Below, piece by piece: positions 283 to 64,000 of a stretch of DNA of 64,000 nt. The position numbers and the translations under genes were made by a program. The notes under the pieces were generated by a model. The model had not been told where the DNA came from and did no database searches. It worked only from the letters and a program-made list of their open reading frames with translations. Source of the stretch: Ianthella basta (taxonomy: Eukaryota; Porifera; Demospongiae; Verongiida; Ianthellidae). Within the stretch, counting starts at the first letter, position 1. Every line of letters starts with the position of its first letter. The stretch covers positions 8,585,915 through 8,649,914 of the forward strand of contig OZ025870.1 of assembly GCA_964019415.1 (NCBI GenBank), given 5' to 3'.

Positions 283-381
283 TGGGGCTACACGCCCCTT
301 TTGAGAGCAGTGGCCGAGGGTCATGCTGATGTTGTTCAATTCTTACTGGATTTTGGCAGTGATGTCCTTGGACAGACTAAT
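283..381 (+). CDS. Gene A ankyrin exon, 99 bp
   Basis: The exon follows an acceptor CAACAG and precedes donor GTGAGT. It is 33 codons in phase 0, exactly one ankyrin repeat, starting WGYTPLLRAVAEGHADVV and continuing with a FLLDFGSDV helix-turn segment. It is closest in sequence to the gene B exon at 46592. Confidence 0.85.
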
Positions 382-61100: not shown

Positions 61101-64000
61101 AACGTGGTAACAGCACCATACTTATCTTCAAGTTTCCACATACATTTGCTGGAGGGATCGAAGAGAAGCTGTCCAAGCCTGATGTGGTTTGGATCATTGT
61201 GCAGTTGGGCATTCTCCGACTACACGTTGTAGGGATTTTCAAAAAGGACGTAAGAGAGTTGCAACCTTCTTTGCTGGCTGTAAATATTCGAGAAGGACTG
61301 GAATCTGGAGTAGAGTTCATGTCAATGACCAAGGTGTGTGTAAGTGTGTGTATGTGTGTGTGTGTGTATGTGTGTGTGTGTGTGTGTGTGTGTGTGTGTG
61401 TGTGTGTGTGTGTGTGTGTGTGTGTGTGTGTGTGTGTGTGTGTGTGTGTGTGTGTGTGTGTGTGTGTGTGTGTGTGTGTGTGTGTGTGTGTGTGTGTGTG
61501 AGTGTGTGTGTGTGTGTGTGTGTGTGACATCACCAAAATGGCAGGTGGTACGCCACTAGGTCGCTAGGGAAGACATCAAACCCGGACTTTTGCGTCGAAG
61601 TGACACCATCTCGTCTCAATGGAAGGAACAGCTGGCGTACAAGGTGCCTGGAGTGCCAGCGTTGCAGTTCCTCATCGGCGGCGAGTTCCATTCCAGCACG
61701 TCTCAAGTTCGAGGACCACCCACTCCTAGCGACCAGTGTAACGTGGTGTCCTACCGCCAGGACCAATTATCCACCACACCCACTGGGCCCTTGTTTGAGT
61801 TGGCTGTGTAATGGTTTACCAGCGACGGTCCTTAGTGGCCAGGGTGTCCGTGGGCAACCAACAATGGCTACGAATAGCCACGGCGCCCAGCAGCCACCCA
61901 GCCCAGTGTGTCCAGCATGGGTCTAGCCAACCCACCCTTTCGAATGGACTGGCTTCCAAAACAGGACCCCAGGCCTTTGGCCTGGGACCTGCCCTACGTC
62001 CTCTATGGACAAGGCGAACAGAGGAGGAGGAGGTGTGTGTGTGTGTGTGTGTGTGTGTGTGTGTGTGCATGCGTGCGTGCGTGCGTGTTGGATTTGGTGG
62101 TGATGGCTCTGATCTGGAGGTAAAATCCTGAATCTGCAAGGCCTCCAAAGTATTTGGTAGCCTCAGCTGCATCTTGTGGTACCAGAAGAGGAGTAAGATC
62201 TACACCAAGCTCTGTATCCTCAATTCTGAGCCCTCTCGACACTTTTGTATGGATTGGAGAGTGTTGTGCTGTTGGAACCTCATATCCACTGCCTCCAGAG
62301 CTTTGTGATGTGTTGCCTGAGGATCATCTAGGATATCTCACTCTAGGATTTAAAATGAAACACCACTATCTGTACCCTGGCATATCAGCAGAGGCAATCT
62401 GTTGGGCTGTCGATGTGCCAACTCTGCTTTCTTGGCATCATCTCCAGAATGCCCAACTCATGTCTCCAGCAGCAGCAGCAGCTGTTTTGTTCTCTTGTTG
62501 GTGAGGCCGGTCCATGGGAGAGCAGAAGCACCACTGGAATAATTTTGTGTGGAGTGACTTGTGAGATCTGCTTTCAAAGAAGATCTACATGAGCTAGAGT
62601 GTACAGAACAGATCAGCTTGGCAAGGAGTACTAAAGATAAGAGGCACTTTTCTCATGCTGAAGCCAAGTGGAAGAAGGTTCAGAAGAGGATGAGAAGGGA
62701 GTCACAAAATGCTGCTACCTTGGAATCGGCTTGTGACCACTATGAATGTCACTTTTGAAGCAGCTGTAGATGGGTCAGTCTTGACCAAGCACACAACTGT
62801 CAGACTCATGGCCCAGCCATCAGTGTTCAATGTGATAACTGCACAAGGTTGTTTAATCATCAGGGACTTCCAAACTACAGGCGGTTCTGCAGCAGGAGAC
62901 CATCCCAGTGACATTTTTCTTGGCCTGTGTCACTCCATCTATATTGATATCTTGAAGTGCAACCAGCATATGCTGTGTTGTGTGTGTGTGTGTGTGTGTG
63001 TGTGTGTGTGTGTGTGTGTGTGTGTGTGTGTGTGTGTGTGTGTGCATGCGTGCATGCTTGCGCATGTGTGCTACATACATTATCTGCTGGTGTTGATGTG
63101 TATGTATATATACGTAGCAGCAGAAGTGCACTACTGGAGATGGCACACACAATTTCTATTGCTATTCGTGTGTCTTTCTGATCACACTTTGCTCCTTTAC
63201 ATGTTTCATCCATAGTGAACTCTAATACACATGCACTGTGTGCACAACTCCTCTAATCAGTAGTCTCCACAGGCAGGTGGAGGTATAGGTTGCGTCCTCA
63301 TTGCTTGTGTTGAATCCTGTCTCCTAGCCCATTTGTCATGATAAGTCTAACTATATTCTGTGGATTCACGTTTGCACCAATAACAATTTTGCAGTCTCCT
63401 TATGTTATATTATCTTCACTTCATCTTCACTGCTTCACTTCATCTTCACTGCTCTTCTCTGCCCTTTGTATCTCAATATCCATTTTGACACAGGAGTGGT
63501 CCCCCCTGATGTATTCACTTGTTGACCAAGTGCTGAAGCCAAAGCAAACTCACTCGGATACGGTACAACCATACTCTGCAAGGCTAACTGAGCTGTTAGT
63601 CTCAGTACCAGTTCAAGAAGTGAGGTGTTAGTGTGGTCTATGCTGTTAGATTGGGGCGTAGGTTTCTGATCTCACTTCGCTTCTTTACATGTTTCATCCA
63701 TAGTGAACTCTAATACGCATGCACTGTGTGCACAACACCTCTAATCAGTAGTCTCCACATGCAGGTGGAGATATAAGTTACGTCCTCATTGCTTGTGTTG
63801 AATCCTTTCTCCTAGCCCATTTGTCATGATAAGTCTAACTATATTCTATGCATTCATGTTTGCACCAATAAGAATTTTATAGTCTCCTTATATTACATTA
63901 TCTTCACTTCATGCCATGATCATCATTATGCATAGGCTACGGGCAGCACCACACCAGTGGAGGACCTACTTCTTGCTGCTGAAAAAGGAAGGTTAAATGA
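51770..64000 (+). CDS. Gene C, 5' part: CARD-death domain-core-ankyrin gene
   Basis: Visible exons are 51770-52172 (CARD), 52270-52329 (linker), 59529-59807 (death domain), 60468-61333 (core), 63494-63619 (42-residue exon) and 63936 to the window end (first ankyrin repeat). The phases join: 1-1, 1-1, 1-1, 1-0, 0-0. All are open, unlike gene B. It differs from gene B in having a death domain where B has its second CARD. CARD and death domains are homotypic signalling modules, so the protein probably assembles a cytosolic signalling complex and uses ankyrin repeats to bind a ligand or partner; this is inference from architecture. Intron 2 is about 7.2 kb and full of repeats. Further exons may have been missed in it. 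Confidence 0.82.
52270..52329 (+). CDS. Gene C exon 2: linker
   Basis: Acceptor TTCCAG and donor GTAAGT, 60 bp, phase 1 to 1. LSLHVSPDANEKRELSQTS matches gene B exon 2. Confidence 0.7.
52770..53219. mobile_element. MITE of about 450 bp
   Basis: The left end AACCCTTTCACACGGATCGC and the right end (reverse complement ACCCATTTCACACAGACCGC) are terminal inverted repeats of about 30 bases. The interior repeats GGTTCGACCC/GGATTCGACC-type motifs. Superfamily not assigned. Confidence 0.65.
53707..55140. mobile_element. Terminal-inverted-repeat element, copy 2
   Basis: Ends ACAGGGTAGTTATACCAGG and CCAGGTATAACGACTCTGT; the whole is the reverse complement of 23081-24719 with indels. Contains the CRE-like palindromes (TGACATCA at about 53815 and 53838), the hairpin array and a block of GAGACAGCGCGTGGA repeats. 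Confidence 0.75.
54100..54400. repeat. Short tandem repeat block, GAGACAGCGCGTGGA type
   Basis: About a dozen degenerate units of 18-22 bases, each with GAGNCAGCGCGTGGA or a variant. The complementary block in copy 1 is at about 24150-24360. CpG-rich compared with the surroundings. Confidence 0.65.
57578..57977. mobile_element. 400-bp PIF/Harbinger-like MITE
   Basis: Terminal inverted repeats GGCCCCGTTTACATCAAAAC and GTTTTAATGTAAACGGGGCC are flanked by TTA on both sides (57575-57577, 57978-57980). A 3-bp TTA duplication with GGCC ends fits PIF/Harbinger-derived MITEs. No coding capacity. Confidence 0.8.
59529..59807 (+). CDS. Gene C exon 3: death domain
   Basis: Acceptor CACCTGTCAG and donor GTCAGC bound 279 bp, phase 1 to 1. 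The exon carries AAGRGRAVLEGVGLTPEVIG, TEEEAVQSGLMKWRDGG and PTWALLIEAMVYAGIGKQHI, fitting the death-domain order: a GL-x-x-E turn, an E-x-x-x-x-x-L-x-x-W helix, and a TW..L..AM..AG helix pair. It occupies the position of the second CARD in gene B. Superfamily assignment is fairly sure; death domain rather than another death-fold type is likely from the central LMKW and TWALLIEA blocks. Confidence 0.75.
60468..61333 (+). CDS. Gene C exon 4: intact core domain
   Basis: Acceptor TTTTTAG, 866 bp, phase 1 to 0, donor GTGTGT at the start of a (GT)n tract. It is open throughout. Landmarks are QAASPSDYHEIW, KSLYFNTYSALIQILK, HYKSHLRAYLKATSIKEGKS, CLDLWTWFLIEALEIPEDHI, GNSTILIFKFPHTF and LGILRLHVVGIF. 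The first half looks all-helical and the second half alternates strands and helices. It is strongly conserved with gene B exon 4. I know similar GNSTILIF-type segments in invertebrate death-fold proteins but cannot name the family. Confidence 0.85.
61334..61527. repeat. (GT)n microsatellite at the core-exon donor
   Basis: About 190 bases of GT with rare interruptions, starting at the splice donor, parallel to 22811. Confidence 0.92.
61528..63100. other. Gene C intron 4, unassigned repetitive sequence
   Basis: Contains an unassigned open stretch on + at 61590-61811, a GAGGAGGAGG tract with (GT)n at 62030-62090, another open stretch at 62154-62504 (with LGYLTLGFKMKHHYLYPG) and a Cys/His-rich segment near 62790-62900 (CDNCTRLFNHQGLPNYRRFC) that may be a zinc finger of a decayed retroelement. 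None is part of the gene C coding sequence by phase or homology with gene B. Confidence 0.4.
62979..63045. repeat. (GT)n microsatellite
   Basis: It precedes the segment AGCAGCAGAAGTGCACTACTGG, shared with gene B at 27824-27845 next to its GT tract. Confidence 0.88.
63494..63619 (+). CDS. Gene C exon 5: 42-residue conserved exon
   Basis: Acceptor ACACAG and donor GTGAGG, 126 bp, phase 0. EWSPLMYSLVDQVLKPKQ is conserved with gene B, and both ends coincide. Confidence 0.7.
63620..63935. repeat. Gene C intron 5 with a local duplication
   Basis: About 63663-63910 repeats 63175-63420, for example TTTACATGTTTCATCCATAG and TAGTCTCCACA(G/T)GCAGGTGG, so a segment flanking exon 5 was duplicated. Confidence 0.75.
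63936..64000 (+). CDS. Gene C exon 6, partial: first ankyrin repeat
   Basis: Acceptor GCATAG, phase 0, TTPVEDLLLAAEKGRLN, cut by the window edge. Orthologous to gene B exon 6. Confidence 0.78.

Follow-up and report, generated by a model that had tools for sequence, protein, structure and literature searches.

How can a tandem gene family exchange some of its exons and multiply others while its reading frames stay intact? Symmetric exons shuffle, and the question is raised anew by a stretch of 64,000 nucleotides from the sponge Ianthella basta (contig OZ025870.1, here C3, positions C3:8585915-8649914; the window in the following), in which the initial annotation saw three paralogues in a row, each combining death-fold exons, an unknown core and ankyrin exons. 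Three paralogues indeed touch the window, but only gene B (11278-47775) is complete within it from the first coding exon to the last. Gene A is represented by its tail, its core being situated outside the window at C3:8550505, and gene C by its 5' part (51770-61333), which ends with the core, the ankyrin part lying beyond the window end. As argued below, these are likely to be cytosolic sensor or adaptor genes of an NCOA6-type TRADD-N expansion, in which exons would be exchanged at the intron adjoining the core and ankyrin exons multiplied by tandem duplication, each kind of exon keeping to its own intron phase. All splice sites were placed by paralogue conservation and AG/GT dinucleotides in genomic DNA alone; the searched genome comprises 209 Mb in 96 contigs.

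The phase order within a gene is as follows: a first exon, CARD1, which holds the start codon and has a phase-1 donor (genes B and C; Table 1), an exon of the CARD2 or D class (1-1), the core exon (1-0), the ankyrin exons (0-0) and a last exon (0-stop). The initial annotation had all exons before the core as 1-1, which is true of CARD2 (six of six genes read, the stop-bearing gene B included) and of D (three of three aligned) but not of the first coding exon, which runs from the start codon to phase 1. Its claim that all exons behind the core are 0-0 is borne out by the splice sites up to the last exon, which is entered in phase 0 and closed by a conserved stop. There are two types of ankyrin exon, type 1 of 204 bp and type 2 of 99 bp (33 codons, one 33-residue repeat), both 0-0. 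Among the exons of three genes and the gene A tail, 28 of 29 type-1 exons have their AG (in the remaining one the site falls in N) and all 29 their GT; of the 24 type-2 exons, all have the AG and 23 the GT. All five copies of the terminal ankyrin exon have a phase-0 donor, and four, all but that of gene B, have the usual phase-0 acceptor.

This phase boundary extends beyond the window. Across the genome, a protein search recovered no fewer than 105 core exons (120 candidates scored), 30 of which, from nine contigs (C1, C2, C3, C4, C5, C10, C11, C14, and C17), were read; identity to the gene C core goes down to 23% among the 28 aligned rows. The 1-0 core exon that had been noted in the window recurs in nearly all of this sample. 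A phase-1 acceptor lies at or near the corresponding place in all 30 cores, ranking best of the searched stretch in 26 and second in four (L002, L003, L037, L038). Some of these scores are weak (e.g., 0.5 in L040 and 1.0 in L044), the place was matched by position only in distant cores, whose exon start has diverged, and L001 was read in the frame that precedes its frameshift. A phase-0 donor, anchored on the conserved exon end, is present in 29 of 30 and is the best-scoring GT in 24 but not in five (L002, L004, L005, L038, L046); none was found in L039, whose frame seems broken. Three further cores, added for the tree described below, were chosen by a phase-1 filter and stand outside the acceptor count; their donors, to which no filter applied, are phase 0 in all three. 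Ankyrin repeats follow two of the three distant cores (C5 and C17; 7.5 kb scanned behind each), and their exons have phase-0 edges where resolved, one of two exons per gene being read at both edges. The phases are thus shared across the cores surveyed and not random. As the core exons are copies of few ancestral exons, they demonstrate conservation and not 30 independent events, and the layout is evidently inherited from a single ancestral one that is old and has been kept.

The core can no longer be called unknown, because its alpha/beta half matches, and very probably is, a TRADD-N domain of the NCOA6 type, and because the architecture has been published for the sponge Amphimedon queenslandica (Kaur et al., 2021). 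The AlphaFold2 model (28 sequences; mean predicted local distance difference test (pLDDT) score 83, predicted template modelling score 0.72) has a helical bundle at residues 11-149 followed by a beta-alpha-beta-beta-alpha-beta arrangement at 167-260, with a short further strand and helix predicted. This is the order of the alpha/beta plait expected for the NCOA6 clade. A conserved serine, preceded by a small residue in the beta2-beta3 turn, is described for TRADD-N in that paper (Kaur et al., 2021). In the core, Ser215 occupies this turn, is invariant in 28 of 28 rows and aligns with the NS of NCOA6, the preceding residue not being invariant. With hhalign, the core profile matched the human NCOA6 TRADD-N fragment at 83.6% (E 8e-6, 59 columns) with the serine aligned. 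The protein alignment leaves out L001 and L039, whose frames are broken, and includes gene C from the window as L007. Searches of Pfam, NCBIfam and PDB sequences returned nothing usable for the core. The exon is constrained, as the ratio of non-synonymous to synonymous substitution rates (dN/dS) is 0.20-0.38 in 35 of 36 pairs, the remaining pair being almost without differences (nine equal-length cores out of 30). An identity as NLR was considered and rejected: there is no NACHT match in the cluster of cores on C3 (102 scored of 469 candidates), and the 28 cores had no NACHT in the Pfam scan.

The exons thus read in the order death-like at the N-terminus, TRADD-N between and ankyrin at the C-terminus; the ankyrin assignment is strong and the death-like ones tentative, since the CARD match of CARD1 falls just under the Pfam cut-off (PF16739, 4.8e-6) and that of CARD2 is weak, a profile of five paralogues matching the greater part of the Apaf-1 CARD at E 0.013. 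The D exon, modelled as helical (pLDDT 71, from 3 sequences only), looks death-domain-like by eye, a resemblance for which Pfam, the PDB profile search and the model offered no support. CARD1 was found without stops in 12 and with stops in two of the 18 genes of the C3 cluster, and not found in four.

Evidence for exchange comes from the surroundings of the core. The cluster on C3 comprises 18 cores, all on the plus strand, between 7.94 and 8.90 Mb. The nearest module upstream is CARD2 in ten of them (the match of gene 8290 being partial) and D in eight, and never both among the 150 matches listed for each module. On a tree of the core exons, the module label needs five changes, at least four of which are forced by well-supported branches, and a single CARD2 clade is rejected (approximately unbiased (AU) test, p 7.2e-5; log-likelihood difference 223). 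This tree has 23 rows, 21 of them labelled; L005 (module unknown) and L034 (CARD2-like, 49%) are unlabelled and uncounted, and C1:13144311 was left out. Furthermore, the introns disagree with the cores. Genes 8472 and 8329, both with D, have 1267 bp upstream of the core in common and cores in different supported clades, and genes 8377 and 8173, both with CARD2, likewise have 1241 bp in common and cores of different clades. The cores of 8377 (CARD2) and of 8329 and 8688 (both D), in turn, form one supported clade (100/98), and the upstream sharing of 8377 and 8329 amounts to just 89 bp. When four CARD2/D pairs were profiled in steps of 100 bp, identity was mostly about 90% in the core, 62-81% over the 100 bp directly ahead of it and 25-42% over the preceding 100 bp; this drop within about 100 bp puts the joint in the phase-1 intron adjoining the core. 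In a matrix of 14 genes, 13 with known module, the 36 CARD2/D pairs share 32-385 bp upstream. The exon swapping proposed in the initial annotation is thereby supported on the signalling side by the discordance between core tree and upstream introns: a repeated pairing of one kind of core with either CARD2 or D exons, via exchange at the adjoining phase-1 intron, appears well supported. The data fit a movement of the signalling exon and a movement of the core equally.

A number of results weigh against this interpretation. The module label is partly clustered on the core tree, 30-37 of 500 shuffles being as low, or 114-115 of 500 when the tree is limited to the first 20 rows. Pairs with like modules often share little intron too: 25 of 36 CARD2/CARD2 pairs share only 35-377 bp, the other 11 sharing 1198-1290 bp, and five of six D/D pairs only 87-118 bp upstream. 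The introns thus turn over fast, and the case is carried by the discordant pairs and the tree; insertions also shorten the sharing, as in gene C and 7027, which regain homology further upstream. Concerning the core, the Pfam model NCOA6_TRADD-N (PF13820) misses all 28 cores scanned and had no match in a scan of the genome, in which the control was likewise empty. Human TRADD compared with the core gave 0.6%, and Foldseek returned no PDB match at E<=0.001, 1f2h ranking 18th (E 0.53, target template modelling score 0.41). For the D exon there was no Pfam match, no PDB death domain by profile and no Foldseek fold match. No ankyrin repeat occurs within 7.5 kb downstream of the third distant core (C10), and gene B, the only complete gene of the window, has a decayed look.

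The same mosaics are predicted by gene conversion of the core exon, in which the N-terminal part would stay and the core tract, together with some upstream intron, would be overwritten from paralogues. The shared tracts do start close to the core exon, domain-wise conversion has been published for the zebrafish NLR-B30.2 genes (PMC4852459), and we give this explanation somewhat less than an even chance. It would, however, re-pair modules at the phase-1 side all the same, and a tract confined to the exon was not seen, that of 8377 and 8329 reaching the end of the fetched DNA some 230-250 bp past the core donor. The phase partition might also be merely inherited from one ancestral gene and have no role, with whole-gene duplication and loss explaining the family. 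All copies share the pattern, which may count as one event (its chance is estimated at about 1% for six introns, from assumed, not measured, phase frequencies), and large duplications exist, for example that relating gene A to the gene with its core at C3:8231311, parallel from the D exon on. This view nevertheless seems unlikely to us, because the AU test rejects one CARD2 origin along the core tree, intron and core disagree in two pairs, and exons of these module classes are also found in front of NACHT exons (see below). An ancestor with both CARD2 and D, of which each lineage lost one so as to mimic exchange, is improbable: one to three death-like domains per protein are on record for Amphimedon (PMC8195603), but none of the 18 cluster genes has both among the matches listed, from which a strongly diverged second copy could escape, and the introns of the four profiled CARD2/D pairs are unrelated beyond the last 100 bp.

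Besides exchange at the core-side intron, our interpretation involves duplication on the ankyrin side. Here, local exon duplication, as envisaged in the initial annotation, is supported by tandem units of about 2.4-2.5 kb in gene B, introns included, that are 88-92% identical, and by a clustering of the type-1 exons of three genes by gene (six label changes vs. a shuffled mean of 12.9, with 0 of 200 shuffles as low; the tree holds 28 of 29 exons, as one begins in N, and 15 of its 24 inner branches are unresolved). A multiplication of ankyrin exons by local tandem duplication of exon pairs can thus be taken as shown for gene B, as judged from these units. The cluster genes have from at least two (8435, 8519) to at least 14 type-1 exons (8377, 8688; a stop occurs in two of the 8688 exons), these counts being lower bounds with 150 scored of 955 candidates, and at least one terminal exon lies behind 17 of the 18 cores. 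Pooled within-gene dN/dS is about 1.2 for type-2 exons (nine in each of two genes) and 0.28-0.65 for type-1 exons; with few changes, and with the type-2 exon that has no donor left out, this is only a hint that type-2 exons may be under relaxed or diversifying change.

In the same genome, NLR-type genes have CARD2-class and D-class exons in common with the TRADD-N family but contain a NACHT exon instead of the TRADD-N core, the best NACHT acceptor candidates being phase 0, so that a further exon may lie in between. With 150 matches listed per module, and 102 NACHT matches scored of 469 candidates, 21 of the 102 NACHT matches have an exon of these classes on their own strand no more than 8 kb upstream (16 CARD2-class and 5 D-class; downstream control 0), and 28 of 105 cores have one within 12 kb upstream (16 and 12; downstream control 1 and 1). 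The three NACHT-associated module exons read (within L059-L062) are 1-1 by their best-scoring sites. It is conceivable, though we advance the idea with more doubt than confidence, that a common pool of 1-1 death-fold exons can be joined to TRADD-N/ankyrin and to NACHT cores alike, the core exon acting as a fixed 1-to-0 converter that separates signalling from recognition exons, so that recombination before the core would re-pair output with sensor.

In the protein, the ankyrin repeats would bind the ligand or trigger, as domain knowledge and Kaur et al. (2021) suggest, and the core with its helical and TRADD-N parts would relay a conformational change, TRADD-N restraining the flanking domains and then switching the signal on (after Kaur et al., 2021). 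The N-terminal CARD or D domain would presumably recruit death-fold partners and nucleate signalling. At the gene level, phase-1 introns upstream and phase-0 introns downstream of the core mean that 1-1 exons can be swapped and 0-0 exons multiplied with the frame kept, and that crossing signalling with ankyrin exons would break it, since the two phase classes differ. Exchange at the core-side phase-1 intron might proceed between tandem copies, via either unequal recombination or gene conversion, and the ankyrin arrays would grow via local tandem duplication of exon pairs. As for the modular receptor/adaptor generator proposed in the initial annotation, exon duplication and exchange are retained, but any generation would take place among gene copies in the course of evolution, with no sign of generation by splicing or in body cells.

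Table 1. Coding exons of genes A, B and C in the window, numbered from its first nucleotide (a slash marks the exon edge).
Feature	Position	Strand	Basis
Gene A type-2 ankyrin exon, 33 codons, 0-0	283-381	+	AG/TGG at 283, GT after 381
Gene A terminal ankyrin exon, 0-0	3891-4082	+	CAG acceptor and GT donor both present
Gene A last coding exon, 0-stop	4362-4433	+	shared by five copies; ends in a stop codon
Gene B CARD1 exon, first coding, start-phase 1	11278-11686	+	homologous to gene C CARD1; donor AAAG/GTAATT, phase 1
Gene B CARD2 exon, sites 1-1, in-frame TGA at 17936-17938	17700-18059	+	CGA there in 5/5 aligned paralogues
Gene B core exon, phase 1 in, phase 0 out, one extra T breaks frame	21944-22810	+	867 bp (866 bp for gene C)
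Gene B type-1 ankyrin exon 1, 68 codons, 0-0	35802-36005	+	Pfam Ank_2 1.6e-12 for frame 35772-36020; splice sites
Gene B type-2 ankyrin exon, 0-0	36518-36616	+	splice sites
Gene B type-1 ankyrin exon 2, 0-0	38396-38599	+	splice sites
Gene B type-2 ankyrin exon, 0-0	39043-39141	+	splice sites
Gene B type-1 ankyrin exon 3, 0-0	39970-40173	+	splice sites
Gene B type-1 ankyrin exon 4, 0-0	42520-42723	+	splice sites
Gene B type-2 ankyrin exon, 0-0	43948-44046	+	splice sites
Gene B type-1 ankyrin exon 5, 0-0	44910-45113	+	splice sites
Gene B type-1 ankyrin exon 6, 0-0	45909-46112	+	splice sites
Gene B type-2 ankyrin exon, 0-0	46592-46690	+	splice sites
Gene B terminal ankyrin exon, usual acceptor AG absent	47382-47573	+	the other four copies have the AG
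Gene B last coding exon, 0-stop	47704-47775	+	conserved stop
Gene C CARD1 exon, first coding, start-phase 1	51770-52172	+	Pfam CARD_2 4.8e-6, 26.9 bits vs. cut-off 28.2; donor phase 1
Gene C D exon, 1-1, helical by model	59529-59807	+	acceptor CTGTCAG and donor AAAG/GTCAG in 3/3 aligned paralogues
Gene C core exon (helical bundle and NCOA6-type TRADD-N), phase 1 in, phase 0 out	60468-61333	+	read as L007

Gene B has three lesions, an in-frame TGA in CARD2, an extra T in the core and the loss of the terminal ankyrin acceptor AG, and is probably a pseudogene. The extra T falls in a run of T and might be an error of the assembly, an explanation that fits the two substitutions less easily. Between its CARD1 and CARD2 exons lies a LINE (long interspersed nuclear element)-like element (13639-16556, minus strand) with reverse transcriptase (6e-29) and endonuclease (2e-12) matches, and between its core and first ankyrin exon are fragments of a DDE_1 or Tc5-type transposase (33689-34425, minus strand). 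A dispersed repeat occurs in opposite orientations at about 23040-25127 (plus) and 53691-55148 (minus), its translated pieces being about 58-90% alike; the one piece tested had no Pfam match. Directly behind the core donor there is a long GT-rich repeat in gene B (22814-22948), gene C (61334-61526) and many close paralogues, which could favour recombination on the 3' side of the core. Two copies elsewhere in the genome may be added. The core L005 (C4:6665475), located on a different contig, is 88% identical to the gene B core and has the upstream intron in common over all 1290 bp compared, so it is evidently a copy that moved together with its intron. The gene with its core at C3:8231311 runs parallel to gene A in its D, core, ankyrin and terminal exons at a distance of 315-319 kb, and the two cores are sisters, which points to a recent large duplication; CARD1 identity to that of gene C is 83% in gene A and 61% in the other gene.

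As its architecture is published for Amphimedon, this kind of gene is already known. Kaur, Iyer, Burroughs and Aravind (2021; PMC8195603) report 357 NCOA6-clade TRADD-N proteins in A. queenslandica, up to half of them with unique architectures, mostly with one to three death-like domains before TRADD-N and with ankyrin repeats among the commonest parts after it, and the present family resembles this expansion in its death-like domains, TRADD-N and often ankyrin repeats. That account is at the protein level, the words exon, intron, splice and gene conversion being absent from the main text. For the DEDD2 clade, retrotransposons are proposed there as source of new fusions, whereas the joint in the present family is the intron adjoining the core among tandem copies. 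The zebrafish NLR-B30.2 genes (PMC4852459) are likewise a large, immune-type family, there on one chromosome arm, with varied N-terminal domains on related cores and gene parts of different histories, for which domain-wise gene conversion is the published explanation. In contrast to the present genes, they have a NACHT core and a leucine-rich repeat/B30.2 C-terminus, and the word phase is absent from the main text. Searches of open-access literature listed no paper on the exon phases of this family, and as far as these searches show, the phase code and the evidence for exchange appear to be new.

With the genomic evidence, the protein-level variety of TRADD-N architectures becomes a testable genomic mechanism, specified by a joint intron, interchangeable exons and the survival of the frame, to which is added the re-pairing of output and sensor at a fixed joint. 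For a family with at least 105 core exons, the kept phase switch furthermore provides a simple annotation rule. The shared 1-1 modules link two large innate-immune gene classes, and if the notion of a common exon pool is true, a single step would rewire a sensor to a different death-fold pathway.

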